Assembly (NCBI GenBank): GCA_002067585.1
Contig: MVQO01000199.1
Location: 1 to 64,000 of the forward strand
Reading direction: 5' to 3'
From: Syntrophorhabdus sp. PtaB.Bin027
GTDB lineage: Bacteria; Desulfobacterota; Syntrophorhabdia; Syntrophorhabdales; Syntrophorhabdaceae
DNA: 64,000 bases
Shown piece after piece: positions 8,082 to 58,877 of the stretch (position 1 is its first letter; each line of letters begins with the position of its first letter). Under the pieces are notes generated by a model. The model saw only the letters and a program-made list of their open reading frames with translations, was not told the origin of the DNA and did not search any database. Made by a program: the position numbers and the translations under genes.

Positions 8082-8412
8082 ATGACCTCCAAATTTTCTT
8101 TATTTACCGTGCATTACTCAGGTAAGTCAACATCTATTGTGTGAAGCAAACCTCCATGGTAAAATAATCTACCCTATCAAAAGCCAGCAAAAAGCATACC
8201 AAACATGATGACTGTATCTCCAGACAAGAATATTCTTCACTGAGATTTATTCATCTGGCTCTCTTCTTCCATCTTGCGCCCCTTTTATACTCTATTATCT
8301 CTTTTCTTTCTCAAAGTCTCTTGTTTTGTTGCCTGTCACCCATGGGTTATCATCTCCAATAAGTCAATATTTATTGCTATACAAACGATATTATGTTAAC
8401 ATATTCCACGAG
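8082..8412. other. Divergent intergenic region between ugd and rimP
   Basis: About 330 AT-rich bases with no credible gene. It must hold promoters for ugd (leftward) and the rimP operon (rightward). A leftward TTGACT lies at 8131-8126 with a poor -10 17 bases on. Two similar stretches, AAGTCAACATCTATTG near 8126 and AAGTCAATATTTATTG near 8362, could be a duplicated regulatory site. No tRNA or known riboswitch was recognised. Confidence 0.5.
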
Positions 8413-37045: not shown

Positions 37046-38320
37046 ATGCAGAAGAAAGCACTTATAGTTGGTATTGACGGTGTTCCTTTCGGCTTAATCA
37101 CCAGAATGATGGAGCAGGGACACATGAAAGAATTGAAGCATATGTGCGAAGGAGATTACACAATTCACAAGATGCACGCATCCTATCCTGACATTTCCAG
37201 CGTGTCGTGGACATCATTCATGACAGGCGCTAATCCTGCTGAGCACGGTATTTATGGCTTTACTGACCTTAAGCCAAATTCTTATGACCTTTACTTCCCC
37301 AACTCTCGTGACATTAAAGCACCCACCTTCTGGCAGACCCTCCAGAAACAAAAAAAAATAAAACGGGTTCTTGTTCTGAACATCCCGAATACCTACCCTG
37401 CCTTTCCCATCGATGGTCTTCTCGTATCTGGATTCGTTGCTATCGATTTTAACAAAGCAGTCTACCCTACCTCTTATGTTGCTCCTTTACAGCGTATGGG
37501 ATACGTTATTGATGTGGACCTCATGAAGGCAAGGCAGGATAAGGATGGGTTCTACCAAGATCTCATGGATAGCCTGGCTGTAAGAGAAAAGGTGTCCATC
37601 AACCTTATCACTGAGGAAGAGTGGGACATAGCTACAATCTGCATAACAGAGACTGACAGGCTTCACCATTTTTTCTTCGATAAAAAAGATACTCCTGTAT
37701 TTCACGATTTCTACAAAAGAGTTGACACCTTCATTGGTAATATTTACAGGGCATTTGAAAAGAAATATGGCAAAGATTTTCTCTTTCTCGTCCTCTCTGA
37801 TCATGGTTTCACCGAACAGGTTGCAGAAGTGAATCTTAACGCCCTGCTCAGGGACAGTGGATATCTCGTAACAGATGAAAGTAGAGATTACTATGATAAA
37901 ATTGAAAAGGGGACTATAGCTTTTGCCATGGATCCGGGGCGTATATATATCCATTACGAAAAGAAATTCCCCCGTGGCCAGGTAAAATCCTCTGAAACAG
38001 AACAGATTAAAAAAGCGCTGAAAGCGGTTTTCCTAGAACTCGCTGACACTAATGGCACAAAAGTCATCAAGGAAGTTGTCGATAAGGAAGAGATTTACAA
38101 GGGGCCTTACTATGATAACGCACCTGACCTGATATGCATTTCAAATGAAGGATACGACCTCAAGGGGAATTTGAGGAGAAAGGAGGTTTTCTCATCAGAC
38201 ATTTTCAAAGGTATGCACACAGGTGAGGACGCAACCCTTATAACACCAAAAAACATAACCTTTGATCAACAGGTGACTATAGAAAACCCCCCTAACATAA
38301 TTATGAACTATTTTTTATGA
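37046..38320 (+). CDS. AlkP-superfamily phosphodiesterase/nucleotide pyrophosphatase (1 of 3)
   Basis: A 424-residue protein of the type I phosphodiesterase/nucleotide pyrophosphatase group. The metal site is outlined by ALIVGIDGVP (first Asp), SSVSWTSFMTGANPAEHGIYG (nucleophile region, Ser or Thr), TETDRLHHFFF (Asp, His), LVLSDHGF (Asp, His) and a C-terminal G-M-H-T-G block. It is smaller than the two paralogues in this window and lacks their LGYF tail. No signal peptide, so it is probably cytoplasmic. It heads a unit with cysD and cysN (19-base gap), suggesting the substrate could be a nucleotide such as APS or a nucleotide-activated intermediate. Substrate unknown. Confidence 0.75.
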   Translation: MQKKALIVGIDGVPFGLITRMMEQGHMKELKHMCEGDYTIHKMHASYPDISSVSWTSFMTGANPAEHGIYGFTDLKPNSYDLYFPNSRDIKAPTFWQTLQKQKKIKRVLVLNIPNTYPAFPIDGLLVSGFVAIDFNKAVYPTSYVAPLQRMGYVIDVDLMKARQDKDGFYQDLMDSLAVREKVSINLITEEEWDIATICITETDRLHHFFFDKKDTPVFHDFYKRVDTFIGNIYRAFEKKYGKDFLFLVLSDHGFTEQVAEVNLNALLRDSGYLVTDESRDYYDKIEKGTIAFAMDPGRIYIHYEKKFPRGQVKSSETEQIKKALKAVFLELADTNGTKVIKEVVDKEEIYKGPYYDNAPDLICISNEGYDLKGNLRRKEVFSSDIFKGMHTGEDATLITPKNITFDQQVTIENPPNIIMNYFL

Positions 38321-38339
38321 TACAGGAAGGAGGTCTTGG

Positions 38340-39143
38340 ATGGATCATTTAGACGCGCTCGAAAACAAAAGTATCTACATCATCAGAGAAGCGTACTACC
38401 GTTTTAAGAATATTGCCATGCTATGGTCTGTAGGCAAGGATTCTACTACATTGTTATGGCTCATACGAAAGGCATTTTTTGGCAAGATTCCTTTCCCCAT
38501 AATCCACATCGACACGAGCTACAAGTTTCCTGATATGTATGAGTTCAGAGACAGGCTTGCTCGTGAATGGAATTTTCCCCTTATTGTAGGAAGGAATGAG
38601 GAAAAACTTGCAGCGGGCATGAGCCCATCTTCTGGCATGAAGCTGGAGTGCTGCACAGAACTTAAGACAAATGCCTTAAAGCAGGTTATTGACAAATACA
38701 AGTTTAAAGCAATATTTCTGGGTATCAGGCGGGATGAGCACGGTATCAGAGCTAAGGAACGGTATTTCTCTCCCAGGGATGACCAGTTCCAGTGGAATTA
38801 TGAGAATCAGCCTGCAGAGATATGGGACCAATATAAATCATACCTGGACAAAGAGGAGCATTACCGGGTTCATCCGATTCTTCATTTCACAGAACTCGAT
38901 ATCTGGAAATATATCCAGCGTGAGAAACTGCCAATCATTCATCTCTACCTGGCAAAAGAAGGAAAAAGATATCGCAGCATCGGATGTGTACCCTGTTGTT
39001 CTCCTATTGAATCAAGTGCCACAACCATCGAAGATATGATTAATGAGGTGGCAGCATCAAAAACATCGGAACGGGCTGGAAGGGCACAGGACAAGGAAAA
39101 CATATATACCATGCAAAAACTGCGGGCATTAGGATACATGTAG
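38340..39143 (+). CDS. cysD: Sulfate adenylyltransferase subunit 2-like (CysD) PP-loop protein
   Basis: A 267-residue CysD-like enzyme that with CysN makes adenosine phosphosulfate from ATP and sulfate. The PP-loop is MLWSVGKDSTTLLWLIRKAF (E. coli has S-I-G-K-D-S). HIDTSYKFPDMYEFRD and GIRRDEHGIRAKERYFSPRD follow the CysD pattern. The C-terminal part, however, has RSIGCVPCCSPIESSATT, a Cys-rich stretch more like PAPS/APS reductases. The protein is shorter than E. coli CysD (302). GGAAGGAGG precedes the ATG, and cysN follows after 10 bases. The end is MQKLRALGYM, where E. coli CysD has a related GYF tail. Confidence 0.8.
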   Translation: MDHLDALENKSIYIIREAYYRFKNIAMLWSVGKDSTTLLWLIRKAFFGKIPFPIIHIDTSYKFPDMYEFRDRLAREWNFPLIVGRNEEKLAAGMSPSSGMKLECCTELKTNALKQVIDKYKFKAIFLGIRRDEHGIRAKERYFSPRDDQFQWNYENQPAEIWDQYKSYLDKEEHYRVHPILHFTELDIWKYIQREKLPIIHLYLAKEGKRYRSIGCVPCCSPIESSATTIEDMINEVAASKTSERAGRAQDKENIYTMQKLRALGYM

Positions 39144-39153
39144 GAGGAAGGAA

Positions 39154-40371
39154 ATGGAAGAAAAAGCATTACCCATCGTAATAACAGGCCACATTGACCA
39201 CGGGAAGAGCACTCTTATCGGTAGGCTTCTCTATGATACTGGAATTTTGAAAGAAGACCGATACCAAGAGATCACTGCTTCTTCCTCGCTCCTTGGTAAA
39301 GAAACTGAGTTTGCCTTTGTTCTCGACGCCCTTGAAGAAGAACGGGAAAAAGGTATAACCATAGATACGACACAGATCTATTTTCAGACACCGAAGAGGA
39401 AATATGTAATCATAGATGCACCTGGCCATAAGGAATTTCTTCGTAACATGATTACAGGCGCCTCCTATGCAGATGCTGCCGTTCTCATCATTGACTCGAA
39501 TGAGGGTATAATGGAGCAGACAAAACGTCATGGTTATCTCCTGAGTATGGTAGGCATCAAAGACATCTGCGTTCTCATAAATAAAATGGATCTTGTGGGT
39601 TACTCGAAGGACATCTATGACAGGGTTGTTGCCGGTATGAAGGATTTCTTTGGAAATCTATCATTGCGACCCAGGTTCTACATCCCCATATCAGCTCTCA
39701 AAGGGAACAATGTTGCCAAAAGGGACCCCTCCATCACCTGGTATGAGGGCCCATGTCTTTTTGAGGCCCTTGATGAGCTTGAATTTAAGACCTTTGAAGA
39801 ACGGCCATTTCGTTTTCCGGTTCAGGATGTCTACCGCATTGGCAATGAAAAGATCGTGGCAGGAAGGATTGAATCAGGCGAAGTCGCTGTTGGTGAAACT
39901 GTGTATCTCTTGTCTAAAGGTTTAAGAGTCAAGATTAAAGAGATAAGGAAATTCCTGGAAGACAATATTAAAACTGCTTCCTATGGTGAATCAATCGGTC
40001 TCATTGTAGAAGGTGCAAACGGAATTAAACGAGGCGATATTCTTTCAGGTGACAACAACGTCAGGACAGTAAAGGATTTTGATGCTAACCTTTTCTGGTT
40101 CTATGGAGAATACAACAAGGGAGACAAGATCCAGATTAAGTGTACTACACAGGAGAGCTATTGTTCTCTCTCAATAACTGAAAAGTTTGATCCTGCCACC
40201 ATGGACAAGAAAAAAGAGGGTTTACATCACCTCGAAATCGGAGAAATAGCCAAGGCAAAGATCAAACTACGCAAGAAAATAGCCATCGATACCTTCTCTT
40301 ACATTCCTGAGATGGGAAGGTTTATCCTAGAAAAGAATGGCATACCGGTTGGTGGAGGAATAATCGTCTGA
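39154..40371 (+). CDS. cysN: Sulfate adenylyltransferase subunit 1-like (CysN) GTPase
   Basis: A 405-residue translation-factor-type GTPase. It has G1 GHIDHGKSTLIGRLLYDTG, the CysN-type switch EREKGITIDTTQIYF, DAPGHKEFLRNMITGASYA and NKMD. It is followed by two beta-barrel domains. GTP hydrolysis drives APS synthesis by CysD. No APS kinase (CysC) domain is fused. No CysH, CysC or sulfite reductase gene is in the window, so the APS is probably used for sulfation or another local purpose rather than shown assimilation. Last gene of the plus-strand AlkP-cysD-cysN unit. Confidence 0.85.
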   Translation: MEEKALPIVITGHIDHGKSTLIGRLLYDTGILKEDRYQEITASSSLLGKETEFAFVLDALEEEREKGITIDTTQIYFQTPKRKYVIIDAPGHKEFLRNMITGASYADAAVLIIDSNEGIMEQTKRHGYLLSMVGIKDICVLINKMDLVGYSKDIYDRVVAGMKDFFGNLSLRPRFYIPISALKGNNVAKRDPSITWYEGPCLFEALDELEFKTFEERPFRFPVQDVYRIGNEKIVAGRIESGEVAVGETVYLLSKGLRVKIKEIRKFLEDNIKTASYGESIGLIVEGANGIKRGDILSGDNNVRTVKDFDANLFWFYGEYNKGDKIQIKCTTQESYCSLSITEKFDPATMDKKKEGLHHLEIGEIAKAKIKLRKKIAIDTFSYIPEMGRFILEKNGIPVGGGIIV

Positions 40372-41531: not shown

Positions 41532-42075
41532 CCGACCTCACCACGCTTCTATTATTGTCTGGACCTGCTTTGAGTTCTTTTAAGGATTTTATCGGTTGTG
41601 CTGGATTACCTGCCACCCACATGTAGTCTTCGATGTCTTTCGTTACCACTGAACCAGGGCCAATAAGTGCACCCTCCCCTATGGTAACACCTGGTAGGAT
41701 AATTGCCCCAACCCCCACAAAAGCACCCTTTCCAATTTTTACATTCTCAATTTTTTTACCACCGACGATATCTCGTTGCAATGGCGTAGGATTGTAATGG
41801 GCAAGTATCTTGACCTCCCTTGTCAGCCAAGCCCCTTCCTCGATTTCCACCATGTCTGGATGAATGGAATCGATAACCACGTGGTAGGCAATGAAGACAC
41901 TCCAGACATTTTTTATGCGTACTCCCCTCATCTTGTGAAGGAGTGCTGTAATAAAAGATGGATACGGAACATGATAGGCTATCAGTCCCATAATGGCTTT
42001 ATAAAGATCGCCAAAAGAAAAGAACAGTCGGTTTGCCTTTTTATATTGTTCCATCATCCAGTTATCGTCATTCAA
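41518..42075 (-). CDS. Left-handed beta-helix (hexapeptide) acyltransferase, WcaF-like
   Basis: A 185-residue O-acetyltransferase-like protein. Hexapeptide repeats are visible in the second half (VKIGKGAFVGVGAIILPGVT, IGEGALIGPGSVVTKDI). The catalytic-type His lies near IDSIHPDMVEIEEGAWLT or ILAHYNPTP. The C-terminal WVAGNPAQPIK is the usual closing motif. It probably acetylates a sugar residue of the surface glycan. It overlaps neighbours on both sides (14 and 8 bases). Confidence 0.8.
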   Translation of the reverse strand: MNDDNWMMEQYKKANRLFFSFGDLYKAIMGLIAYHVPYPSFITALLHKMRGVRIKNVWSVFIAYHVVIDSIHPDMVEIEEGAWLTREVKILAHYNPTPLQRDIVGGKKIENVKIGKGAFVGVGAIILPGVTIGEGALIGPGSVVTKDIEDYMWVAGNPAQPIKSLKELKAGPDNNRSVVRSDGRK

Positions 42076-43738
42076 AATATCCCAGGCTTTTCAAGTGGGC
42101 CTTCAATTCCTCTTCCTCTTCTTTGGTGTAGACCTCACCTGTTGCAAAACTACATGTATTCAAATCACCTGTTTCGATAGGGTTTTGTTCAAGAATCTCC
42201 TTCTCAATAGCATCCTTTAGTACCATGCCGTCCATGTCAGGGTCAACGGGTAAACCCATAAGATATAGAATGGTCGGTGCAATGTCCATGATATTACCAT
42301 TTATAATCGTGGAGTTACTCTTTAACCCAGCGCCCTTCACCATGAGAATTCCATCCATCCTGTGAGAGCTGGAAAGTCCACGAGAGTAATCAAGGGTACG
42401 ATGGGAGGCGAATTCATACTCGCCAAATGCAACTATTTCAAGTCCCTTTGGCAAAAAAACAATATCTGGTGCCGTTAATGTGTGAGGTCCAGAATAGAGT
42501 TCTTCTTTTCTGTAAATCTCTTCGATGACATGATGTCCTGTCTCTGGGTCTGTAAGACCCCTCAATTCTTTAATTATTTCTTCCCTTACAGCTTTGTATT
42601 CTTCGCCTCTCCTGATAATTCCCCCTGGCTCTCTCCCTTCTAAGTTTACATATATTTGGCCTGCTGTGCTTCCAATAGCATAGGCTTTTGAAGTACCCCA
42701 ATCAACATCCTCGAAGGAGAGAAAAAACTTCTTAAGCCATGAAGAACCTTGACCGAAGCGAGTCTTGTGCTTTAGTCGTCCTAGACCAACTGAAAGTAAA
42801 ATATGGTAGAAGGTCATGGGTGACACACCAAGGCGAAATAAAAGGTGCTTGAATCTTGTCATGACCCTTTTCCTTAATTTTAAGAAACCTTTTTTAATGA
42901 GAAAATTATTAACATAAAAAAGCTTTTTTAAAGCCCCGGCACCGTGATCGGACATAACAACGAGAATAGCATTTTCTCTTTCGCACCAGTCCATCACATC
43001 ACAAAGAATACTGTCCATGTACTCATAGAACTGGGGAATGACATCGATATAACGTTCCTCGTATTGTCCATGACGGAAATGCCGCCTATCATAAGTGTGC
43101 CAGAGTTCGTGCTGTAAAACATCGATCCCCTGATACACAGCAACGAAAAGATCCCAATCTTCCTGACTGAGAAGAAAATCCATGGCTTGCTTTTGTTTTG
43201 ATGTAACCTCATACAAATGTTTCAAAAATCGATCTTCCTGTTTTCTTGAATATGATTCTGTAATATGGATCTGGTATTTCCCTGCCACCCTATCAAGCTC
43301 TTTAGCTATAGAAAAAGGATGGGTGAAATCATTCCTACCTGAAGGTGTCAGCATTCCTGAAACCATTATTCCGTTCACAGGATCAGGAGGATACGTCACC
43401 GGGACATTAAAGATACAAACCTTCCTGTCAGCCTCTGTCGCAATGGTCCAGAATGCCTTCCCGTTGCGCATTCGTGCACTGATGGGTGAAAGTTCATAGC
43501 TTCCTTCTTTACGGTAAATAAAATCGAAAATGCCATGTTTGCCAGGATTCTTACCAGTCATGAAGGAAGACCAAGCAGAACCTGTAATAGGAGGAATTGT
43601 TGTTCTCAGCTTCCCGGAGGCCCCCCCATCCTTAAGTGCCTTAAATGAGGGCAACCTGCCCCTATCGATCAACGACTCAATTATCTCGGGACTCGCACCA
43701 TCTAGACCAAGAACAAAAACCTTTTGGTTCAAAGCCAT
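42068..43738 (-). CDS. AlkP-superfamily phosphodiesterase (2 of 3)
   Basis: A 556-residue cytoplasmic-looking AlkP/NPP family protein. Metal-site segments are KVFVLGLDGASPEIIESL, PPITGSAWSSFMTGKNPGKHG (nucleophile region), YQGIDVLQHELW, ILVVMSDHGAG and SSHRMDGILMVKG. The C-terminus is EELKAHLKSLGYFE. Members near O-antigen and capsule genes are thought to act on nucleotide-sugar or lipid-phosphate substrates, but this is not established. It forms a unit with the acyltransferase, GT2 and DUF2304 genes downstream (8-base overlap). Confidence 0.75.
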   Translation of the reverse strand: MALNQKVFVLGLDGASPEIIESLIDRGRLPSFKALKDGGASGKLRTTIPPITGSAWSSFMTGKNPGKHGIFDFIYRKEGSYELSPISARMRNGKAFWTIATEADRKVCIFNVPVTYPPDPVNGIMVSGMLTPSGRNDFTHPFSIAKELDRVAGKYQIHITESYSRKQEDRFLKHLYEVTSKQKQAMDFLLSQEDWDLFVAVYQGIDVLQHELWHTYDRRHFRHGQYEERYIDVIPQFYEYMDSILCDVMDWCERENAILVVMSDHGAGALKKLFYVNNFLIKKGFLKLRKRVMTRFKHLLFRLGVSPMTFYHILLSVGLGRLKHKTRFGQGSSWLKKFFLSFEDVDWGTSKAYAIGSTAGQIYVNLEGREPGGIIRRGEEYKAVREEIIKELRGLTDPETGHHVIEEIYRKEELYSGPHTLTAPDIVFLPKGLEIVAFGEYEFASHRTLDYSRGLSSSHRMDGILMVKGAGLKSNSTIINGNIMDIAPTILYLMGLPVDPDMDGMVLKDAIEKEILEQNPIETGDLNTCSFATGEVYTKEEEEELKAHLKSLGYFE

Positions 43739-44976: not shown

Positions 44977-46428
44977 GTGCTTTTCAATTCATATGTATTT
45001 ATTCTTCTTTTTCTTCCCTTAACTTTATTTATTTATTTCTTTTTGAACAGAAAAAAACTGATTCTGGCCTCAAAGGCCTGGCTTGTACTTGCCTCTCTCT
45101 TTTTTTATGGGTGGTGGAATCCAGTCTACATTCCTCTCATCCTTGGAAGCATCCTCTTTAATTATGGGATAGGGTTGACTCTTACAAGGGCCAAGCAATC
45201 CCAATCTAGGCTTTTTTTGATCATTGGAATTCTAGGCAATCTGATATTATTAGCTTATTTCAAATATACGGATTTCTTTATAAACAATATCAACCATATA
45301 ACCGGCAGTCACATAAGACTGCTCCAGATAGCCCTGCCGTTGGGCATTAGCTTCTTCACATTCACCCAGATTGCATATCTTGTGGATGTATACAGACGTA
45401 TGGCCAAGGAATACAGCGTGCTCAACTATTTTCTTTTTGTCACATTTTTTCCTCACCTTCTTGCAGGCCCAATCATCCACCATAAGGAGATGATGCCTCA
45501 GTTTGACCGATTAAAAAATAAGCTTTTAAATAATAAGAACCTTGTTCATGGTCTCCTCCTTTTTTTTGTTGGCCTGTTCAAAAAGGTGAGTATTGCAGAT
45601 ACCCTTGCTGTATGGGTCGACCAGGGTTTCGACCACGCTGTCATCCTAAATATTGTGGAGGCTTGGACTGTCTCCCTTTCCTATTCTCTTCAACTTTATT
45701 TTGACTTCTCAGGTTATACCGATATGGCACTCGGTTCTTCTCTCATGTTCAACATAAGGCTCCCTATCAATTTCAATACTCCTTACAGATCGATCAACAT
45801 ACAGGAATTCTGGCGTAGATGGCATATAACTTTGGGCAGATTTATCAGGGATTACGTCTATATACCCTTGGGTGGAAACAGGGTATCTGAAATACGGATT
45901 ATCATAAACCTTATGATCACCTTCTTCATCATCGGTTTGTGGCATGGAGCTGGTTGGACATTCGTCTGCTGGGGACTGATGCATGGACTTGCCATTGTGG
46001 TACAAAGAACCTGGAAAAGGTTGAACATACACCTTCCAAAACCTCTTGCCTGGCTTCTTACATTCAATTTTGTTAATTTTTCATGGATTTTTTTTAGGGC
46101 AAGAAACTTTGATGATGCTATCAAAGTGGTGAAAGGTATGTTTGGTGCCCATGGCCTGGGGGTAACCGGTTATATCAACCATGCCTTTGAGTCTTTTAAG
46201 ACGTTTCGAGCTACTCTAAAATATTGGCTGGAAAATATTGACGGAAATATTTACACCCTTGTTTTCATTATCATCTGTCTTATGTTGTCCATTTATTTTC
46301 GTAATTCAAACGACATGGAACAGCGATTTTCTCCAACATGGAAGAATGCCTGTATGCTGGGTTTACTTTCATTGTACGCCATGCTTAATCTGCAAAAGGC
46401 AAGTCAATTCATATATTTTATTTTTTAA
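44977..46428 (+). CDS. MBOAT O-acyltransferase, AlgI/PatA-like (module 1)
   Basis: A 483-residue membrane protein with about 11-12 helices. Family hallmarks are FFPHLLAGPIIHHKEMMPQF, YFDFSGYTDMALG, EFWRRWHITLGRFIRDYVYI and the catalytic His in IGLWHGAGWTFVCWG (near residue 321). AlgI-type MBOATs move an acyl group across the membrane to acylate polysaccharide. A GTG start with AAGGAA upstream is used. An SGNH-type partner follows after 5 bases, the usual two-component arrangement. Confidence 0.92.
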   Translation: MLFNSYVFILLFLPLTLFIYFFLNRKKLILASKAWLVLASLFFYGWWNPVYIPLILGSILFNYGIGLTLTRAKQSQSRLFLIIGILGNLILLAYFKYTDFFINNINHITGSHIRLLQIALPLGISFFTFTQIAYLVDVYRRMAKEYSVLNYFLFVTFFPHLLAGPIIHHKEMMPQFDRLKNKLLNNKNLVHGLLLFFVGLFKKVSIADTLAVWVDQGFDHAVILNIVEAWTVSLSYSLQLYFDFSGYTDMALGSSLMFNIRLPINFNTPYRSINIQEFWRRWHITLGRFIRDYVYIPLGGNRVSEIRIIINLMITFFIIGLWHGAGWTFVCWGLMHGLAIVVQRTWKRLNIHLPKPLAWLLTFNFVNFSWIFFRARNFDDAIKVVKGMFGAHGLGVTGYINHAFESFKTFRATLKYWLENIDGNIYTLVFIIICLMLSIYFRNSNDMEQRFSPTWKNACMLGLLSLYAMLNLQKASQFIYFIF

Positions 46429-46433
46429 TAAAC

Positions 46434-47624
46434 ATGAAAAAGTATAGTCAATTTTTAAAAGTGTATTTCTTATTCATCGCAATTATCGCGTTCCCATTAT
46501 TCTTGAATTTTCTTTTTATAACAAATGCTCACGAACATACACCGTACAAAAAAATAGTAAAAATCCAGCGGGGAAAAAATGCAATATACGGAACTGCACT
46601 CAATCAGATTACTTTTGCGTACAAAATTGAGCTTGTGCGGAGTGTAAAACCAACCCTTATTGCCCTTGGATCTTCACGTGTTTTGGAATTGCGAGAAGAG
46701 TTCTTTGAAGTACCTTTTGTCAATTGCGGTGGAGCAATGAACAACCTCGAAGAAGGAAGGCTTTTCCTGACTGAATTGTTCCGTTACCATAGACCGGAAA
46801 TTATAATACTAGGCCTTGATTTCTGGTGGTTCAGCGATCAGTTTACCCATCGGAAAACCTTTGACTACCATAGAAACACAGGCACTGATCTAACCTTTGG
46901 TAAATTAATAAAACCATACGAATTTTTAATATCGTCAAAAATAGAACTAAGGGATTATATAAGCATTCTCTTGTTCAAGAATGATAGAAATCATATAACA
47001 AACTTTAATAACCTAGGCCTAATAGCAATCAAGAGATCGGACGGATTCAGGAAGGATGGCTCCTACCTGTATGCAAACGCTATCACTGGATTTGCTCCAA
47101 AAGGACAGAGGATTACCGGCTTTAATGACAGGCTTGACTCAAAAAGGCGTTTTGAGTTCGGAGCAGACATTTCACAAAATAGAATAGCGATACTGAATGA
47201 AATATTAAAACTGTGTATGAATTATAATGTAAAACCAATTTTGATCATTCCGCCTGTTACGACCTTTGTGTATCAGCGCATACTATCACGACCTGAAAAA
47301 TACGGTTACGTTTTCAAGTTTCAAGAATATGTCAAATCCTTACCTTTTGAGAATTACGATTATCACGACATAAGAAAGGCCGCATCCTGTAACTGTGAAT
47401 GTATTGACGGTTTTCACATTGGGGATGTGGCTTATCAGAAGATTCTTTTGGATATTCTCAAGCAAAACCATGACTCGGTAATTGCTGCTTTCGTTAATAA
47501 TAACCTTCTAGAACGAACAGTACGTCAGAATGAAGGGAAGGTTATGACCATTTTTCCGAATGATGAGGGTAAATTTAACTACGAGGAGACAGACTTTCTG
47601 GAGCTTGGTTGCAGAAAAAACTGA
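46434..47624 (+). CDS. SGNH/AlgJ-like periplasmic O-acyltransferase partner (module 1)
   Basis: A 396-residue protein with one N-terminal membrane anchor (FLFIAIIAFPLFLNFLFI) and a periplasmic domain. SGNH-like features are IALGSSRVLELREEFF (Ser near residue 80) and the C-terminal DGFHIGDVAY (Asp-x-x-His). It probably takes the acyl group delivered by the MBOAT and transfers it to the glycan, as AlgJ/AlgX, PatB or DltD-type partners do. Only these motifs are recognisable; overall similarity is low. It is convergent with the GT39 gene. Confidence 0.6.
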   Translation: MKKYSQFLKVYFLFIAIIAFPLFLNFLFITNAHEHTPYKKIVKIQRGKNAIYGTALNQITFAYKIELVRSVKPTLIALGSSRVLELREEFFEVPFVNCGGAMNNLEEGRLFLTELFRYHRPEIIILGLDFWWFSDQFTHRKTFDYHRNTGTDLTFGKLIKPYEFLISSKIELRDYISILLFKNDRNHITNFNNLGLIAIKRSDGFRKDGSYLYANAITGFAPKGQRITGFNDRLDSKRRFEFGADISQNRIAILNEILKLCMNYNVKPILIIPPVTTFVYQRILSRPEKYGYVFKFQEYVKSLPFENYDYHDIRKAASCNCECIDGFHIGDVAYQKILLDILKQNHDSVIAAFVNNNLLERTVRQNEGKVMTIFPNDEGKFNYEETDFLELGCRKN

Positions 47625-49290: not shown

Positions 49291-49559
49291 ACCCACCTCA
49301 TGCAGCTTGACTCAATTTTTCATAAAATCGGGTAGTATTTTTCCTGAAATCTGACGTTTTCCAACCACTGTTTTTTAAAACCTGGGTAGTGGAGACCAGC
49401 CCGTGCTGATTTTCTGAGGGTACCTGGCGCTAAACTCAGTGATGACCGGATCTACAGTACCCTTGACACTCTCCTGCCCCATAGAGATTAATTGTATGTA
49501 CAGTTCCAGAAACGCTATAACAAACTCTTCGAGCTACCTTTGTCTCCTCTTTTATAACA

Positions 49560-49800
49560 TTGACCCCACGTATTTTGAGGAGGATATGTATGGCAACTCC
49601 CGTGTATAAAAAAATACTGCCGCGACAGTCATCCTGATTCTCCCCAGTATGTATCGGTCTGGTGACAGCAAAGGAAGGGCTGCCCGTACCATTTAGATAT
49701 TTGACGGCAGTCATGCAAAGACGAAGAAGTTCGTTCCCGCGCTCATCTTTGAGAAACTCTGGAAGGAACGGGTAGTTGACAGGGTGGCCTCCAATATCAA
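49560..49800 (+). pseudogene. Transposase N-terminal relic, IS1634-like
   Basis: Across frames the plus strand gives SPQYVSVW, then in one frame KKFVPALIFEKLWKERVVDR near 49720-49780. This matches the G-x-A-L-I-F-E-x-L-W-x-E block near the N-terminus of IS1634-type DDE transposases. Stops interrupt it, and the rest of the transposase is absent. The assignment rests on one motif. Confidence 0.3.
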
Positions 49801-49936
49801 CGGGTTGTTGTCCAACACAACTTTTGCACAGGCCATTATAGAAAGTCCAGAGCACCAGCTACCAACCGTAATATTTACCGGTCACACTTTTTCTACGGAT
49901 AGAGAAACGGTAAATCCAATGCTCATTCCAAAGATT

Positions 49937-50484
49937 CTACCTGCAGCTCTGCCACAGAGATGTAATTGGTTTGAGGTAATGCCATGCTTTTATCGGTCTT
50001 GTTGTGTACCAAAGCAATATCTCGATGTTCTGGATTATACAGATAAGATATGCTGAATGACATCTTTCCAGAGACCCCTCCACCCTGCCAGGTCGAAATC
50101 GTTCTGTCCATTCCGTTTGCAGAAGCGTTCCATAAAGCGTTGACGGGTTTTGTATATCTCCAGGCTTTGCTTAGCGCACCGAATCTTGAGTTCACACGCT
50201 GCGCAGTCTTTCTTTTTTGCCATATATGCAATAGTGTGACGGTGGGAATGATAGCCTTTACACACGAGATCATTCCCGGCAGCACATCGGTAGGTATTTA
50301 TTGATTCTTCGCAAACAAAGACCTCTTCCAGATAAATATCGCTTCCGCAAACAGGTATGTTTGTTCCGTATTTTCTCAGAAGAATATAGGGTGATATGTA
50401 CTTATCATGACAGGCTGAGTGGCTCTCAATAGTCCATAACTGGCTGTCGACTACAACTATCCCGGGTTGTACACCGATATTCAC
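49937..50484 (-). pseudogene. DDE transposase C-terminal relic, IS1182-like
   Basis: The minus strand reads GVQPGIVVVDSQLWTIES (DDE strand with Asp), then GYHSHRHTIAYMAKKKDCAA plus C-E-L-K-I-R-C (Cys motif of the family), then FDLAGWRGLWK. A frameshift near 50035 leads to AYLICIIQNIEILL, the expected final helix, before a stop at 49937. The N-terminal half is missing. This is the tail of an IS1182/IS5-superfamily transposase, cut at its start by the IS3-like relic. Confidence 0.6.
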
Positions 50485-50487
50485 CGT

Positions 50488-51084
50488 ATGGGCATCAAGG
50501 CTCTCTACAAGAACCTTCGTCTCTTAAAACCTGAATCCCGGTCACATGATCTATCCTTACCGCTTAAGAGGGCTCGACATTAACGAAGCAAATTCCGTGT
50601 GGTATCCCGATATATAACCTGCATCCCCATGGCAAAAGGTTTCTGCAATCTTGTTTCCTCCATGGATTGGGCAAGGAGGAAGGTATTATCTGGAGGATAT
50701 CCAAACACCCGGGATGATTCCTTCTGCATTGAGACCCTTGAAGAAGCACTGCAAAAATATGGAACACCCGATATCTGCAACACCGACCAGGGAAGCCAGT
50801 TTACATCGGATAGCTTCATGGGGATACTCAAGACCCATGGAATAAAAATCAGCATGGACGGACAGGACCGGTGGAGGGATAACATCATTATCGAGCGTTT
50901 CTGGAAAACTGTGAAATACGAAGAGATCTTCTTGAAAGCATATGCATCAATCAGTCATGCGAAAAAGGAGCTTATGAAGTTTTTTGATCGGTACAACACA
51001 CGGCGGCCCCACTAGGGTCTCAACGACAGGATTCCGGATGATGTGTACTGGCAAACCCTGCCGGAAGTAAAGGATGCGATATAA
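50488..51084 (+). pseudogene. IS3-family transposase OrfB relic
   Basis: From about 50488 the plus strand gives RMGIKALYKNLRLLKPES. After a frameshift near 50540 it gives GHMIYPYRLRGLDINEANSV, and after a two-base insertion near 50608 ITCIPMAKGFCNLVSSMDWA through DICNTDQGSQFTSDSFMGIL and IIERFWKTVKYEEIFLKAYA to DRYNTRRPH. This is the IS3/IS2-group integrase core with Asp and Glu of the DDE triad visible. An in-frame TAG at 51013 stands where Gln is expected; the true end is GLNDRIPDDVYWQTLP with a stop at 51084. OrfA is absent, so the element is dead. Confidence 0.85.
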
Positions 51085-51229: not shown

Positions 51230-52795
51230 ATGAATTCGACTAAAAAAGTAATGGTAATTGGCCTTGATGGAATGTCTCTTAGCCTCACTTCTCACCTTAT
51301 TGATTTAGGAATTATGCCGAATCTCAAAGCCCTTTTCAAGCGGGGAACGTACGGAAAACTGAGGTCCGTTATCCCGCCTATAACACCTGCAGCATGGACG
51401 TCATTCCAGACAGGCAAGTATCCAAACAAACACGGGGTCGTAAATTTCTTTGTGGAAAAACCATGGACTTATGAGTATGAGTTCACGAACAGCACCTGCA
51501 TCGTCGGAAAGACACTCTGGAAAATCCTGAGCGATGCAGATAAAAAACCGATTATCGTGAACGTCCCCCTGACTTACCCTCCTGAAGCCATCAATGGAAT
51601 CATTATCCCTGGCTTTGATACACCTGAAACGTCTGATGATTGCATTCATCCCAGGGGCCTCTTAAAAACTATAGAGAATCATATAGGGCGCTACGACTTC
51701 TACCGGATGTGGTGGAATGATGCTGTCTTCAAGCAGAATGGCCTAGCTGGACTCATACGTGAACTGCTTCAAATAACCGACAGCCAGGTTGAAGGAGTCA
51801 AGTTTTTAATGAAGGAATTTGACTGGAATTTCTTCATGTACCATTTTCAGGTTACCGACGCATTGCAACATCACGCTTTTCACCTCATCGACCCATCCAG
51901 ACATGGTCTCGACATGGCCGAAAAAGAACAGCAAAAAATTATTCTGGAGTTTTACGAGAATATCGATCGAAAAATAGGTGAACTCCTTGAAGGGATCGAC
52001 CGGGATACCTGCGTGTGTGTTCTTTCCGACCATGGATTTCTTTCATTGCACAAAGCGTTCTATCTTAACCACTGGCTATACCAACAGGGATATCTTGTGA
52101 AAAACAATCGCTATTTTCTTATCAAACAACTGGATAACCTTGTTCATTTATCAAAAAAATTCAAACTTCCATTTTTGCGCAACATGAAATACCCTCTCCG
52201 GAAAAATCCTATTCGCACCCTCCGGAAAATAGATTATAAACGGACCCAAGCTTATGCGTATTGCTACTTGGTAAATTATGCGTTTCTCTTCCTGAACAAG
52301 AACCTGAAGATCAACGAAGAGGCATTAAAAAAGGATTTGAAGGAAATACAGTACAATGGAGAGCACATTGTTAGGAATGTTTACCGGTGGTATACCGGAG
52401 AGGCATCCAGCGATTTCAATCCTGATTTGGTCGTTGAATGTATTGAGGGATATTCAATAATGCAAAAAATACCGTCAAAAAAACGCCCTTTTGCATTCGA
52501 CCTATCCAACGATAGCAATCATGCAATAAACGGCATGTTTTGCTTAGCAGGCAGCAATATCAAGAAACAGCATACTGCAGTTGCGGAAATAGTCGATGTC
52601 TTCCCCACCATTCTTCACCTGTTGGATATCCCTATTCCTGACGATATTGATGGAACTATTATAACTGATGCTTTTGAGTCATATGAAGGGACTAGATATG
52701 TGACCTCTGACATGTCACCAACCTCTTACATAGAAGCAGGCACTGAAGATTTTGAAAAAGTTGCTAATCGTTTGAAGGACCTGGGTTACTTTTGA
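51230..52795 (+). CDS. AlkP-superfamily phosphodiesterase (3 of 3)
   Basis: A 521-residue paralogue of the protein at 42.1-43.7 kb. Metal-site segments are KVMVIGLDGMSLSLTSHLID, PPITPAAWTSFQTGKYPNKHG, FQVTDALQHHAFHLID, CVCVLSDHGFLSLHKAF and SNHAINGMFCLAG. In the nucleophile segment Thr or Ser follows Trp (A-W-T-S-F), as in the other two copies. The end is KVANRLKDLGYF. A weak AGGT ribosome binding site lies 7 bases before the ATG. It precedes the two nucleotidyltransferase-fold genes and may share their transcript. Substrate unknown. Confidence 0.75.
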   Translation: MNSTKKVMVIGLDGMSLSLTSHLIDLGIMPNLKALFKRGTYGKLRSVIPPITPAAWTSFQTGKYPNKHGVVNFFVEKPWTYEYEFTNSTCIVGKTLWKILSDADKKPIIVNVPLTYPPEAINGIIIPGFDTPETSDDCIHPRGLLKTIENHIGRYDFYRMWWNDAVFKQNGLAGLIRELLQITDSQVEGVKFLMKEFDWNFFMYHFQVTDALQHHAFHLIDPSRHGLDMAEKEQQKIILEFYENIDRKIGELLEGIDRDTCVCVLSDHGFLSLHKAFYLNHWLYQQGYLVKNNRYFLIKQLDNLVHLSKKFKLPFLRNMKYPLRKNPIRTLRKIDYKRTQAYAYCYLVNYAFLFLNKNLKINEEALKKDLKEIQYNGEHIVRNVYRWYTGEASSDFNPDLVVECIEGYSIMQKIPSKKRPFAFDLSNDSNHAINGMFCLAGSNIKKQHTAVAEIVDVFPTILHLLDIPIPDDIDGTIITDAFESYEGTRYVTSDMSPTSYIEAGTEDFEKVANRLKDLGYF

Positions 52796-52937: not shown

Positions 52938-53960
52938 ATGAATAACGTGTTGGATTTACAACAGCGCTTTAGAAGAAACATATACAAATATGTGAACGGA
53001 GATTTTCTTTCGTGGAAAGATACTTTACTTTCGACCATATCTCCCTCAGTTCCGTTTTACAGACATGCAAAGAGAATCTTCCACCAATACATGAAAAGCT
53101 ATTCGTTTTCGTCTAGAGGGTTATCACCTGACATCGTGACGATAGATGCCTACCAGGGCAAGAACCCTCATGTGCTCCGAATGATGGATTTTATCTGCGA
53201 CTTAAAAGAGGATCTTGTGGGAGCTTATCTCCATGGCAGCTTGGGAACTTACGAAGAAACCCCTTTCAGCGATTTCGACGCGCTCGTAATCTTGAGGAAC
53301 GAAATATTTAAAGATCCTGAAAGGCTTGCACGCACTGCCTATATAATTTATTGTGCCCAATCGATCATGTTCGACTTTGATCCCATACAGCATCATGGAT
53401 GGGTTGTCCTCTCAGAGGCAGACCTGGAGTCTTACCCTCAAGATCGGTTTCCAAAGGAATTGTTTCATTATGCAAAATCCCTCTTCCCTAATCATGGGAG
53501 GTCGTTGAGCATTAGTTGCAAAAACTCAGCACAGAACGTTAGGCAAAGTTTCGACAATTTATGTCAAAGTGCATTAAAGAGGATTGAGCAGAGGGAATCT
53601 ATACGCAATGTATATGAATTAAAAATCCTTTTAAGCCAGTTTATGTTACTGCCAAGTCTCTATGTTGAGATGCGTGATGGAAAAGGTATATACAAGAAGT
53701 TTAGTTTTGAGGCAGCCCGCGTCGATTTTGAAACCAAGGACTGGTCAATCATGGATGATGTGTCCTCGATACGTGCAAATTGGTCTTACCATATCTCACC
53801 CTCCTTTCACCGGTTAATATCAAAGCCGACAAAGCACTCGAGGCTTCTTGCAAAAAAATTTTCTCCTCCCGTACCCAAAGAAATTCAAAGGTTCCTGACA
53901 GACGATTTTTACCAGAGAATGTCGCGTCTCATAACATTAATGGCAAGCAAACCTCGATGA
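52938..53960 (+). CDS. Nucleotidyltransferase-fold protein A of a tandem pair
   Basis: A 340-residue protein. Residues about 99-114 read YLHGSLGTYEETPFSDFDAL, the Pol-beta-type nucleotidyltransferase signature (h-G-S-x10-D-x-D). A later FDFDPIQHHGW could give the third carboxylate. The C-terminal half is helical with a basic tail. I chose ATG 52938, with AAGGGA 8 bases upstream; a GTG at 52887 would add 17 residues. The role in a glycan locus is unclear: it could nucleotidylate a small molecule, lipid or protein. It is not recognisable as a sugar-nucleotide pyrophosphorylase or as MNT/HEPN. It overlaps gene B by 4 bases. Confidence 0.65.
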   Translation: MNNVLDLQQRFRRNIYKYVNGDFLSWKDTLLSTISPSVPFYRHAKRIFHQYMKSYSFSSRGLSPDIVTIDAYQGKNPHVLRMMDFICDLKEDLVGAYLHGSLGTYEETPFSDFDALVILRNEIFKDPERLARTAYIIYCAQSIMFDFDPIQHHGWVVLSEADLESYPQDRFPKELFHYAKSLFPNHGRSLSISCKNSAQNVRQSFDNLCQSALKRIEQRESIRNVYELKILLSQFMLLPSLYVEMRDGKGIYKKFSFEAARVDFETKDWSIMDDVSSIRANWSYHISPSFHRLISKPTKHSRLLAKKFSPPVPKEIQRFLTDDFYQRMSRLITLMASKPR

Positions 53961-54937
53961 CTTTCCGGTTCAAAAACACACCTCAGTTTATTCCTTTAGA
54001 GGTTTACGAAAATGAAATCACTACAATGATTGAAAGGTTGAATGAGCATAAGAACATTGTATCGGTCTATCAAGTGGGAACTGTCCAACATCCTGGCATA
54101 TCTGATATCGACATGTTGGTGGTCCTCAAAGACGATGCAGAGTTTTATCAGAATCCTTTGAAAAATTCATCTGTGACTGGGCGCTATCTATTTGTTCACC
54201 CTCTTCTAGGTGTAACCAAAACTGATTTTATGGAGGCGCAACATTTTAATTTCTTTCGTAATTGGCGTCTTCTTTTGGGTGAACAATTGATTACAGGGGA
54301 AAACAAATTCTCCAGTGACGAGATTGCTTGCTTACAAATCCAGATTGCCCTTGAATATTTGCTTTCCAACTATATACAGTTGACTGTTATGAAATTACAC
54401 AGGATTGTCAATATCCGAGCCCTTCTGTTAAATATGAAAGCAATGCTTTACGACCTTCGACTACTCAACGTTTCATCTGGACCTTTATATGATCTTTTAG
54501 AGAGACTTGTTGCTTGGCGTGATAGGTGGTTTGAAGAGCAACCACATTACAAAGATTTGACCAGATGGATCAACTTATGCTACCTCGAACTTGGTTCATT
54601 CCTTCAAAAACAACTGCAAATGCATCGTTTTTATCTTCCTAAATGGGGCAACCTTCATGTCACAAAAAACGTTGTTCTATCTCCAAATGAGTCTTTTTCA
54701 TGCAAATGTCAGGGAATGCCACTACCTGTTGCATTTGCCTTTCTCGGAAAAAAGTATCTCAAACTTCAACGGAAACTCAATAAGGTTACCATCTTCCTTC
54801 CTATACAAAGGGAAAAAATTCCTTCCATACTTATTCGTAAGTTTAACCTCGAATCAAAGATGGTTCAATTCAATCTTGATAAACCATTTTTGACTCTGAG
54901 GAGTACACTCAATTTTTTGCGAAAAGTACATCGATAG
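53957..54937 (+). CDS. Nucleotidyltransferase-fold protein B of a tandem pair
   Basis: A 326-residue protein whose ATG overlaps the stop of gene A (ATGA). Residues about 40-57 read VGTVQHPGISDIDMLVVLKD, a G-T-x5-G-x-S-D-I-D-x-x-V-V signature of the nucleotidyltransferase fold. The rest is mostly helical, with a long basic C-terminus (FLGKKYLKLQRKLNKVTIFL). The two proteins are only distantly alike, suggesting a heteromer or successive steps. The frame is open back to 53780, but that part lies inside gene A and is not family-like. Function unknown. Confidence 0.6.
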   Translation: MTFRFKNTPQFIPLEVYENEITTMIERLNEHKNIVSVYQVGTVQHPGISDIDMLVVLKDDAEFYQNPLKNSSVTGRYLFVHPLLGVTKTDFMEAQHFNFFRNWRLLLGEQLITGENKFSSDEIACLQIQIALEYLLSNYIQLTVMKLHRIVNIRALLLNMKAMLYDLRLLNVSSGPLYDLLERLVAWRDRWFEEQPHYKDLTRWINLCYLELGSFLQKQLQMHRFYLPKWGNLHVTKNVVLSPNESFSCKCQGMPLPVAFAFLGKKYLKLQRKLNKVTIFLPIQREKIPSILIRKFNLESKMVQFNLDKPFLTLRSTLNFLRKVHR

Positions 54938-54970: not shown

Positions 54971-56071
54971 CTAGTTCTCACTGTGCAGGTCCCTCATAAA
55001 TTTGATCAAATCATTTTTTGTCCTCTCCAGGCTAAATGCATGTGCAACACGTAACCCGTTTTCAATGCATTTATTTCTGAACTCAACATTCCTGATGAAG
55101 GATTCAATGCCTTCAGCAATCTTTTCGGGGCTATGAGTTGGTACAAAATACGCAAAGTCTTTATTTTCATTGAAGTTTCTGTAGGTTGAAATATCCGTAA
55201 GTATAGATGGAACCCCAGATGCTAGCGCCTCAATGGCAGGGAGACCAAACCCCTCTCCTTCAAGAGACGAAGAGATAAAGATATCTGCGTCACGGTAGAG
55301 TTCTGCCATTTCTTTCTCCTTCACTCCTGTAAGAAACTGATGGACAAGATCACCTTCTTTTTCTCGTCGTGATGGAATACCGGGCGATACCCTTATGAGC
55401 TCAACCTCGATACCTTTTTGTTTCAAGAACTCCACAGCATCAAGGGTATCAACAATACCTTTGAATCCCACGTCTGCAGAACCTACTGATAAAATACGAA
55501 TCTTTCTGTTGGCTCCCCATACCTTTTCAGGATATGGATGAAAGATATTAAGATCGATTCCATTCTGGATGAGTGCACATTTTTGATGGTACTTGCTCTC
55601 TAGGAGCTCCACAAGATGTTTTGATACAGCGGCTTTGAATGTGGGCAGAGCGTAGACCGCTTCAATCTGACGTATCCTTTTTCTAAACTTCAATATATCC
55701 AAACGACTTTCCAACAGAGAAAGGAAACCTTTTCTCTGGTAACGCTCGGTGACCGATTCCCCTGAAATTCTTGAAAGGTAATCTATGGGTTCATAACCCT
55801 GGCACAGATGTACTAGTTTTCTAATACCTTTGGAAAAAAGCATTTTTACATCATGATAAATTGATGCAACTATAATGTCAAAATCAGACAAATACCGAAA
55901 GCTCTCAGGGTCAAAGACAACCGGCTTTACCTTTAAGTCCCATGAATCCTTCACCCTGTTCGTAAATAAAGTAACATCGTAGCCATCTTCCTTCAGCATC
56001 TGTACATGCTGCAAGACTACCTTGACGCCTCCAGACACACCAATGTTTCTAATAAAATAAGCTACCCTCAT
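54971..56071 (-). CDS. GT4 family glycosyltransferase
   Basis: A 366-residue GT-B enzyme. The N-terminal domain starts RVAYFIRNIGVSGGVKVVLQ (donor/acceptor loop G-G). The C-terminal half has ILSVGSADVGFKGIVDTLDA and the retaining GT4 E-x7-E motif in SSSLEGEGFGLPAIEALASG. It probably transfers a hexose in assembly of the surface glycan. It stands alone on the minus strand between the nucleotidyltransferase pair and the second MBOAT module. The 238 bases upstream hold divergent promoters that I could not place firmly. Confidence 0.88.
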   Translation of the reverse strand: MRVAYFIRNIGVSGGVKVVLQHVQMLKEDGYDVTLFTNRVKDSWDLKVKPVVFDPESFRYLSDFDIIVASIYHDVKMLFSKGIRKLVHLCQGYEPIDYLSRISGESVTERYQRKGFLSLLESRLDILKFRKRIRQIEAVYALPTFKAAVSKHLVELLESKYHQKCALIQNGIDLNIFHPYPEKVWGANRKIRILSVGSADVGFKGIVDTLDAVEFLKQKGIEVELIRVSPGIPSRREKEGDLVHQFLTGVKEKEMAELYRDADIFISSSLEGEGFGLPAIEALASGVPSILTDISTYRNFNENKDFAYFVPTHSPEKIAEGIESFIRNVEFRNKCIENGLRVAHAFSLERTKNDLIKFMRDLHSEN

Positions 56072-56309: not shown

Positions 56310-57773
56310 ATGGATTTATACTCACTTCAATTCTTCGTCTTTCTTTTTATCGTTCTCGCTATCTATTGCCTTGGACATCAACGATTCAGATGGATCATTC
56401 TGCTCGGAGCAAGCTATTATTTCTATGGTACCTTTAAGTTTCAGTACCTATTCCTCCTCGCCTTTTCTACTATAGTAGCTTATTTTGTGGCCTTACTCAT
56501 GGAAAAACAGATGAGTCCATCAGGCAAGAGAATGCTTCTTCTTGCAGGCTGTATCTGCAATTTGGGTGTTCTTTTCGTATTTAAATACTTCAACTTCTTT
56601 AGCAGTTCCGTTACTGGTATTTTCGGTGATCCACGTCATTCTTCTCCGAACCATCTGCTCCGACTTGTTGTCCCCGTGGGAATCTCATTCTATATATTCC
56701 AGGTAGTTAGCTACATGATCGATGTGTACCGAGGAGATAAAACTGCTGAGAGGCATATTGGTGCGTTTGCTCTGTATGTTTCTTTTTTCCCCAAGCTTCT
56801 TGCAGGGCCCATCGAGCGGGCAAAGCAATTTCTGCCCCAGCTTCATGAATACCATAAGTGGGACTGGGAACGGGCAACGAATGGATTTAAACTCATGGTT
56901 TGGGGGTTATTTAAAAAGCTGGTGGTCGCTGATCGCCTTGCTGTGTTTGTCGATATGGTTTTCAATAATCCTGCTGCCCACATGGGGCCCAGCTTTGTTC
57001 TTGTTGCTGTATTATACAGCTTTCAGATTTACTGCGATTTTTCAGGCTACACTGATATTGCCATAGGAGTCTCCCAGGTTTTTGGGTTTAAACTTACAGA
57101 TAATTTTAACCGTCCTTACACTGCCCGTTCTGTAGCAGAGTTTTGGCGACGCTGGCATATCTCTTTTTCCACCTGGCTTAGAGACTACCTTTATATACCG
57201 CTTGGCGGAAACCGAGTTGTTCCAACACGGCTTTATATAAATTTAATATTGGTATTCCTTGTCTGTGGTCTATGGCATGGTGCAAGTTGGACCTTTGTTG
57301 CATGGGGGTTCATCCATGGCATCTTCATAGTGAGTGGACTCATTTCCCGGAACCTGCGATTTAAAGTCAACCATGCTTTTGGTCTCGACAGCCACCCTGC
57401 TCTTCAGAAAGGTTTTCAGAATTGCATCACCTTTGCTCTTGTCTCGGTTGCCTGGATTTTTTTCAGGGCTGAATCACTCCATGATGCAGTCTATATGTTA
57501 ACACATCTGCACACAGGGTGGGTGGATATCCTCAAGGGGAATGGATTTGAATCTATGATCTTACTTGGGAAAGCAAAAAGTCAGCTTATTATTGCCCTTG
57601 CATCCCTTACCTTTGTCTGGGTTATCCATTTTATCGAGAGTCATGAGACCATGCGGCATATGTTGTCTGAAAAACCATTTTATGTGCGCTGGCCGATTTA
57701 TTATCTGATGTTGTCCGCAGTGTTTCTGTTAAGTGCGCCTGGTTCACAGAAATATATTTATTTTCAATTTTAG
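56310..57773 (+). CDS. MBOAT O-acyltransferase, AlgI-like (module 2)
   Basis: A 487-residue membrane protein paralogous to module 1. Hallmarks are SFFPKLLAGPIERAKQFLPQ, YCDFSGYTDIAIGVSQVFG, EFWRRWHISFSTWLRDYLYI and the catalytic His in CGLWHGASWTFVAWG (near residue 320). It is closer to AlgI than module 1 (A-G-P-I-E-R-A). The SGNH partner starts 12 bases after its stop. No ribosome binding site is obvious before the ATG. Confidence 0.93.
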   Translation: MDLYSLQFFVFLFIVLAIYCLGHQRFRWIILLGASYYFYGTFKFQYLFLLAFSTIVAYFVALLMEKQMSPSGKRMLLLAGCICNLGVLFVFKYFNFFSSSVTGIFGDPRHSSPNHLLRLVVPVGISFYIFQVVSYMIDVYRGDKTAERHIGAFALYVSFFPKLLAGPIERAKQFLPQLHEYHKWDWERATNGFKLMVWGLFKKLVVADRLAVFVDMVFNNPAAHMGPSFVLVAVLYSFQIYCDFSGYTDIAIGVSQVFGFKLTDNFNRPYTARSVAEFWRRWHISFSTWLRDYLYIPLGGNRVVPTRLYINLILVFLVCGLWHGASWTFVAWGFIHGIFIVSGLISRNLRFKVNHAFGLDSHPALQKGFQNCITFALVSVAWIFFRAESLHDAVYMLTHLHTGWVDILKGNGFESMILLGKAKSQLIIALASLTFVWVIHFIESHETMRHMLSEKPFYVRWPIYYLMLSAVFLLSAPGSQKYIYFQF

Positions 57774-57785
57774 GAATCAGTGGCC

Positions 57786-58877
57786 ATGAATGGTTATCGC
57801 GCAAAATACCTTCTGTTTTTTCTTCCCTTTATAGCTGCTATTTGTCTTGAGCTGTTTGTTCTCCCTATCCATCAGTTCACCTTCCGAGTCTGGGAATCCC
57901 TTTCTGTTAAACGTTCCTATGGTATCCTGAAAGGTCAATTCTATCCAAATATGAAAATAAAAAAAATAGAGGACGGAGACCTTGCATATTACACTAGATG
58001 TGCAGTGAAAAAGGATGTATTGTGGATCACAGATAAATTCGGTTACAGAAAAGCCAACGTGGCGACAAAAAAACATCCAATTGTTATTGTCGGGGATTCA
58101 AATATTGCCGGAAGCAGCTTAAGCCAGGAAGAGCTTCTTTCAGAGGTACTCGAAAAAAAACTGGGACAAAGTGTCTATCCCCTCGCAGCAGAAAGATTAC
58201 GGGCCCTATTCAAGCATGATCTTATTAGAGAAAACCTTCCGGATATTGTTGTGCTGGCAGGAATAGAACGTGATTTGCCTGAATCACTCCGACCTCTCTC
58301 CGCTAAAGACCTCCGCACTCCTTCAACTCTGGAAGAAGCTCTAAAAAAGTTATGTCTAAGCCCTGCCCTTCAGAACACGGCTGTCCTCGTTGATCGGATT
58401 TTCAAGGCAAACATGCTTAACTATCTGCGTGCCCGTATTAACAGGTCAGGCTCTATGAGTCAACCTGAGCTCACATCAGCACAATGCCCTATCTTTTTCA
58501 TCCAGGGAGTAAATGCGAATAAGGATTCAACGTCTGAAAGGATTGAGCAGGCAGCACAAAGGCTTAAAGAATACAGAGATCTTCTTCATAAAAAACGTGT
58601 GCGATTCATATTTCTTCCTATTCCAAACAAGGAAACCATATTGTATCAATACCTTGGAACACAACAACCTTTATTTCTTGAACAATTGATCAAAAAATCT
58701 CAGAACCTGGGTATTGAGGTCATTGATACCCAGAAAACATTCCATGACTTCTATCAGGCGACACACACTTTTCCCTACCATGCGGACGATAGCCACTGGA
58801 ATGGGCTGGGGGTGAAGATAGCTGCTGACTTGCTCGAAAAACAGATAATGACAAAACCTCTGTCTATTTTCCGCTGA
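57786..58877 (+). CDS. SGNH/AlgJ-like periplasmic acyltransferase partner (module 2)
   Basis: A 363-residue protein with an N-terminal membrane anchor (YLLFFLPFIAAICLELFVLP). Catalytic-type motifs are IVIVGDSNIAGSSLSQEELL (Ser of G-D-S near residue 106) and HADDSHWNGLGVKIAADLL (Asp-x-x-His near 335), as in AlgJ/AlgX-like SGNH proteins. It probably completes acyl transfer begun by the adjacent MBOAT. I chose ATG 57786, 10 bases after AGGA; a GTG at 57780 adds two residues. Its end overlaps the convergent pmbA-like gene by 14 bases. Confidence 0.72.
   Translation: MNGYRAKYLLFFLPFIAAICLELFVLPIHQFTFRVWESLSVKRSYGILKGQFYPNMKIKKIEDGDLAYYTRCAVKKDVLWITDKFGYRKANVATKKHPIVIVGDSNIAGSSLSQEELLSEVLEKKLGQSVYPLAAERLRALFKHDLIRENLPDIVVLAGIERDLPESLRPLSAKDLRTPSTLEEALKKLCLSPALQNTAVLVDRIFKANMLNYLRARINRSGSMSQPELTSAQCPIFFIQGVNANKDSTSERIEQAAQRLKEYRDLLHKKRVRFIFLPIPNKETILYQYLGTQQPLFLEQLIKKSQNLGIEVIDTQKTFHDFYQATHTFPYHADDSHWNGLGVKIAADLLEKQIMTKPLSIFR

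Follow-up and report, generated by a model that had tools for sequence, protein, structure and literature searches.

Two overlapping genes in the genome of Syntrophorhabdus sp. PtaB.Bin027, here called A and B, form a real, conserved two-gene nucleotidyltransferase (NTase) system of known fold that is apparently undescribed. They lie in the window, the 64,000-nucleotide stretch of contig MVQO01000199.1 that we analysed. Gene A (52938..53960, plus strand) encodes a 340-residue NTase with a C-terminal helical domain (HEPN-like, ANT-type); it runs from an ATG at 52938, with an AGAAGG ribosome-binding site upstream, to a TGA at 53958-53960. Gene B (53957..54937, plus strand) encodes a 326-residue NTase that has a helical domain and, at about residues 230-326, an additional C-terminal part; the gene runs from an ATG at 53957 to a stop codon at 54935-54937. 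The 4-base ATGA overlap of stop and start reported in a sequence-only reading of this DNA is real (53957..53960, plus strand). That reading also assigned both genes the signature G-[ST]-x-D-x-D. Both do carry an NTase signature, although this form is loose; the actual one is GS or GT followed at a distance by SDxD (G100-S101...S111-D112-F-D114, or GS-x9-SDFD, in A; G41-T42...PG-I-S49-D50-I-D52, or GT-x6-SDID, in B). The motifs of A are thus HGS (99-101), SDFD (111-114) and DPIQHHG (148-154) together with K229, K253 and R279, and those of B are VGTVQHPGISDID (40-52), H81, R154 and R188. The further claim that the two proteins share little else does not hold at the level of profiles, where they are distant homologues (HHalign E of 1e-5 to 1e-6; 1e-6 over 176 columns, and 1.5e-5 in a second alignment, which places the HHG segment of A opposite H81 of B).

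Plain searches with A and B failed and would suggest an orphan pair. Direct searches of 99 relatives and 297 members of the phylum returned the window's own genome only, peptide-pattern searches of genome contigs and viral contigs recovered no relatives, and there were no matches among plasmids, phages or PDB sequences. A degenerate-DNA scan with the B motif hGSh..PGhSDhDh showed otherwise, matching three viral contigs and 61 stretches of species genomes. Four of these matches (L005, L024, L040 and L059) were judged to be chance and dropped, as were two (L030 and L057) without a full B-like open reading frame. After removal of the chance matches, 58 B-like genes remained, about 56 of them bacterial or archaeal and two on phage contigs. 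The bacterial carriers belong to Bacteroidota, Acidobacteria, Aminicenantes, Planctomycetota, Proteobacteria, Ignavibacteria, Gemmatimonadaceae and Anaerolineae, as well as to the candidate phyla bacteria Peregrinibacteria, Nealsonbacteria and Peribacteria, while the archaeal ones belong to Thermoplasmata, Poseidoniia and Nanohaloarchaea. Cultured carriers include Methylotuvimicrobium buryatense 5G, Gelidibacter sediminis and Rhabdochromatium marinum.

Within this broad range the pair is rare and patchy. Of 326 genomes sampled from the window's phylum, one carried it, and B occurred in 1 of 199 genomes of the family that holds the Winogradskyella genome of locus L031. Profile A did match elsewhere in the window's phylum (E 1e-7 to 1e-11, about 50-80 residues), but these were generic NTase cores; they were not counted because they lack the DPLQHHG part, and the B profile matches none of those genomes. 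The closest match to the window's B shares 62% identity with it, the rest 13-37%. This closest match, L029, is a 3.5-kb contig in a Thermoplasmata metagenome-assembled genome, and it also carries the closest match to the AlkP-superfamily phosphodiesterase gene (51230..52795, plus strand; PF01663) that lies just upstream of A, where the sequence-only reading had placed it. The identities between L029 and the window are 75% for AlkP, 67% for A and 62% for B, which points either to horizontal transfer or to misbinning of the short contig. Transposase remnants just upstream of the AlkP-A-B cassette (49436-51015, with an integrase core at 50599-51012 and broken frames on the other strand) are in keeping with horizontal acquisition.

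The pairing of A with B is far beyond chance. We sought A with an iterative profile grown from A and from the genes just upstream of B in L003 and L004. Of the 58 B loci, each fetched independently, 49 also contained A, whether adjacent to B, one or two genes off, or fused to it. A weak match in L063 was judged to be part of B and is left out of the 49. Whole-genome searches of eight further B genomes found A in five (L014, L027, L033, L050 and L067) and no detectable A in the genomes of L034, L051 and L056; the B of L051 lies near the end of its stretch. In all 40 loci with separate genes, the window not counted, A comes first and on the same strand as B. The spacing is mostly an overlap or a few bases, with a 4-base overlap in at least 11 other loci. 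About ten loci have a gene-sized gap between A and B, mostly filled by a sulfotransferase or methyltransferase gene, and the gap in L044 is wider still. Single-frame fusions of A and B occur in L021, L025, L053, L064 and L050/L101. The conserved pair of divergent NTases proposed from the sequence is therefore borne out, and homologues of A and B are practically never found apart.

In L050 (contig CP053447.1; L101 is the same reading frame), A and B are parts of a very long ignavibacterial protein (open frame of about 2356 residues) that, judged by eye, contains TPR and several glycosyltransferase-like segments as well. A scan with the A motif only, the sole check free of B-motif bias, gave one new pair, L145, in which B again overlaps A. 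This B keeps PGISDLD, but its signature glycine is followed by Glu instead of Ser/Thr. On the phage contig concerned, a methyltransferase gene, glycosyltransferase genes, A and B form one row (350-5373).

A and B have also been inherited together. Their pairwise distances correlate over 33 loci (r=0.909, against a permutation maximum of 0.318, n=2000). Neighbouring genes gave correlations of 0.46-0.80 (GT4 glycosyltransferases), about 0.8 (flippases) and 0.91-0.95 (AsnB, 11 loci). Since AsnB correlates equally well, and since the pair is rare and sits in fast-exchanging glycan loci, part of the A/B signal reflects a shared cassette history.

Nearly all A/B loci are gene clusters that build cell-surface sugars. 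Among 132 same-strand neighbours (most loci cover about 4 kb on each side of the pair) were 34 Glycos_transf_1, 16 polysaccharide flippase and nine Sulfotransfer_3 genes, along with methyltransferases, hexapeptide acyltransferases, a polysaccharide deacetylase, CTP_transf_3 and NeuB. The neighbours across loci include Wzx flippases and NeuA/NeuB, AsnB-type amidotransferases recur in 14 loci, and in L048 A is fused to a GT4-like protein. This setting argues for a role in surface-glycan assembly rather than in reversible signalling. On the phage contig L003, a run of NeuA-like, A, B, SIS and NeuB genes (4023-8159) lies beside capsid-like genes; here a phage carries a nonulosonate cassette that includes the NTase pair.

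The window is no exception. A GT4-type glycosyltransferase gene (54971..56071, minus strand) adjoins B on the opposite strand; it belongs to sequence cluster c0, which neighbours the pair in other loci more often than any other cluster. Around the pair there are also genes for MBOAT acyltransferases, an AlgX-like SGNH protein, a PMT_2 glycosyltransferase, an LPG_synthase_TM protein, a CysD/CysN-like pair and two further AlkP proteins; from these neighbours, this is a surface-glycan cluster. Two MBOAT genes are each followed by an SGNH/AlgX-like partner (44977-47624 and 56310-58877), forming two candidate O-acetylation modules; the partner in 44977-47624 has no Pfam match. At 37046-40371, an AlkP phosphodiesterase gene is followed by PAPS_reduct (CysD-like) and GTP_EFTU (CysN-like) genes, that is, sulfate activation within the glycan cluster, and elsewhere sulfotransferases often lie between A and B.

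What kind of enzymes are these? AlphaFold models of high confidence (pLDDT 94.7 for A and 93.8 for B) show both as an AadA/ANT(9)-like NTase core with a helical substrate domain. The best structural match of A is AadA (Z 11.3, 3.8 A over 218 residues) and that of B is ANT-3,9 (Z 9.0, 3.6 A over 189 residues, with B residues from about 230 on outside the match), although Z below 8, or below about 13 for helical bundles, can reflect a common arrangement. Here the ANT/AadA-type assignment is supported by the NTase core with its signature. AadA and AAD(9), aminoglycoside adenylyltransferases of the ANT(3'')(9)/ANT(9) type, likewise combine an NTase core and a helical substrate-binding domain in one chain, with GS...SDxD. 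They differ from A and B in several respects: none of 42 A and 48 B members searched against Pfam matched the AadA_C domain (PF13427) at E 0.01, A and B always come paired, A has the DPLQHHG motif and B an H-G motif, and they lie in surface-glycan loci instead of resistance cassettes. The AadA1 query of our profile comparison was a 100% match to annotated aadA1 genes. Gene context and the missing family match argue against aminoglycoside resistance.

The residues expected of an active site are well conserved. In A, D112 is present in 40/40 members and D114 in 38/40 (two have Glu); D148, H152, H153, K253 and R279 are present in 42/42 and K229 in 41/42, and none of these residues was part of the retrieval pattern. 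In B, H81 is present in 44/48, R154 in 46/48 and R188 in 44/48, whereas the search pattern itself accounts in part for the invariance of GS, PG and SDxD. Loss of the catalytic aspartates would have spoken against the earlier proposal, and both proteins retain these metal-binding residues. In AadA, Asp47, Asp49 and Glu87 bind Mg, Glu87 being the catalytic base, Arg192 and Lys205 of the helical domain bind the ATP phosphates, and the NTP is bound between the two domains (PMC6065190, PMC4631478). The candidate counterparts of AadA E87, which lies on the third strand, are the invariant D148 and H152-H153 just before that strand in A, and H81 in B.

On the basis of family models, neither protein belongs to a named family. 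A passes the Pfam NTP_transf_2 cut-off barely (21.2 vs 21 bits) and otherwise matches superfamily models only, and B has no match to any Pfam, NCBIfam or PHROG model. Profile and motif tests likewise place the pair outside the named toxin, GlnE/GlnD and LicD families. We did not find a description of the pair in the open-access literature, although this search was limited and an earlier mention is possible. The fold and general chemistry of A and B are already known. Because the pair sits in glycan clusters and has no named protein family, it probably makes a modification of the sugar coat that nobody has described.

We lean, by a small margin over even odds, towards A and B acting as one cytoplasmic NTase on a surface glycan or its precursor. 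A and B would be the two subunits, translationally coupled or in some species fused, of one obligate NTase. As in AadA, Mg-NTP would be bound in a cleft between the NTase core and the helical domain, lined on the core side by S101, D112, D114 and D148/H152/H153 of A, and on the helical side by K229/K253/R279 of A and R154/R188 of B; by the same analogy, the Lys/Arg set of A would hold the NTP. The NMP would then be passed to a hydroxyl group, be it on a growing lipid-linked saccharide, on a precursor sugar or at the end of a glycan, presumably ahead of flipping or export. Of the two, A is the likelier main catalytic subunit. B, which keeps the two Asp and carries His81 in the place of H153 of A, may serve to complete the site or to regulate it. 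A more specific version, which we hold only tentatively and would bet against, is that the pair decorates surface glycans or lipid-linked precursors with NMP, a class of modification that we did not find described, spread horizontally among bacteria, archaea and phages and often beside sulfation and methylation genes.

The main rival reading is a LicD/FKRP-like reaction, in which a CDP-linked donor (CDP-polyol, choline or ethanolamine) would supply a phospho-group, rather than NMP, to the glycan. Proteins of the LicD family, which have the NTase fold, are encoded in capsule loci and use CDP conjugates; with FKRP, they modify surface glycans such as those of capsule and teichoic acid loci (PMC11666461). 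The A/B loci are also surface-glycan loci, some with CTP_transf_3 cytidylyltransferases. Even so, such phosphotransfer seems rather unlikely: a scan of 90 A and B sequences gave no match to LicD (PF04991), structural comparison points first to ANT adenylyltransferases, and genes for CDP-alcohol synthesis are not a recurrent feature of the neighbourhood. LicD and FKRP are also not known as an obligate NTase pair.

Alternatively, the pair could act one step earlier, making an NDP- or NMP-activated sugar or head-group for the glycosyltransferases and leaving the glycan itself untouched. NeuA/NeuB and aminotransferase genes, which serve sugar-precursor synthesis, do adjoin the pair in L003 and L017. 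Yet the neighbouring precursor genes vary from locus to locus while A and B are constant, and known sugar nucleotidylyltransferases have other folds, so we regard this as distinctly unlikely.

GlnE and GlnD offer another precedent for two paralogous NTase units working as one system. Here, one subunit would add a nucleotide and the other remove it by phosphorolysis, thereby regulating a glycan enzyme. The occasional A-B fusions recall this tandem layout, and A weakly matches the structure of the GlnE N-terminal domain (1v4a). This is improbable, though, as the GlnE/GlnD profiles matched no A or B member scanned, the fold is closer to that of small-molecule ANTs, and the neighbourhood is a glycan context with no conserved protein target and no glutamine synthetase or PII partner.

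Even less probable is the write/erase system proposed in the sequence-only reading, in which A and B nucleotidylate a molecule and the upstream AlkP phosphodiesterase strips the group off again. The window and the archaeal contig L029 do share the AlkP-A-B order at high identity. An AlkP relative adjoins the pair in these two loci and in no other, within the roughly 4 kb on each side that most loci span, and two more paralogues lie in the window cluster away from A and B. Without co-conservation the eraser idea is unsupported, and AlkP is better seen as a lineage-specific neighbour than as a conserved part of the system. The three AlkP-superfamily paralogues of the cluster are at 37046-38320, 42068-43738 and 51230-52795, the first two being 27-30% identical to the third.

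Finally, it is barely credible that A and B form a toxin-antitoxin or anti-phage module like MNT-HEPN or CBASS: the fold class is the same (an NTase with a HEPN-like domain, in a two-gene module as in the type VII HepT-MntA and other MNT-HEPN pairs), PADLOC gave weak matches to candidate models and the pair is present in phage contigs, but A and B each carry both domains, B has no PADLOC match, and the neighbours are glycan rather than defence genes. The MNT-HEPN case was rejected on two further grounds: the Rx4-6H RNase motif is not conserved in A (R279 is invariant, with no conserved His 4-6 residues after it), and A falls far below the MntA family cut-off (profile P0001, 12.6 vs 60 bits; 3/42 A members match, weakly).

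A two-gene enzyme thus occurs from CPR bacteria to archaea and phages, with one of its subunits, B, lacking a named family. As long as the B family is unnamed, a step in the tailoring of surface sugars is missing from genome annotation. If A and B do add nucleotides or phospho-groups, capsules, O-antigens and archaeal glycans would need to be read differently, and the charge of these coats, their use as phage receptors and their recognition would all be affected.
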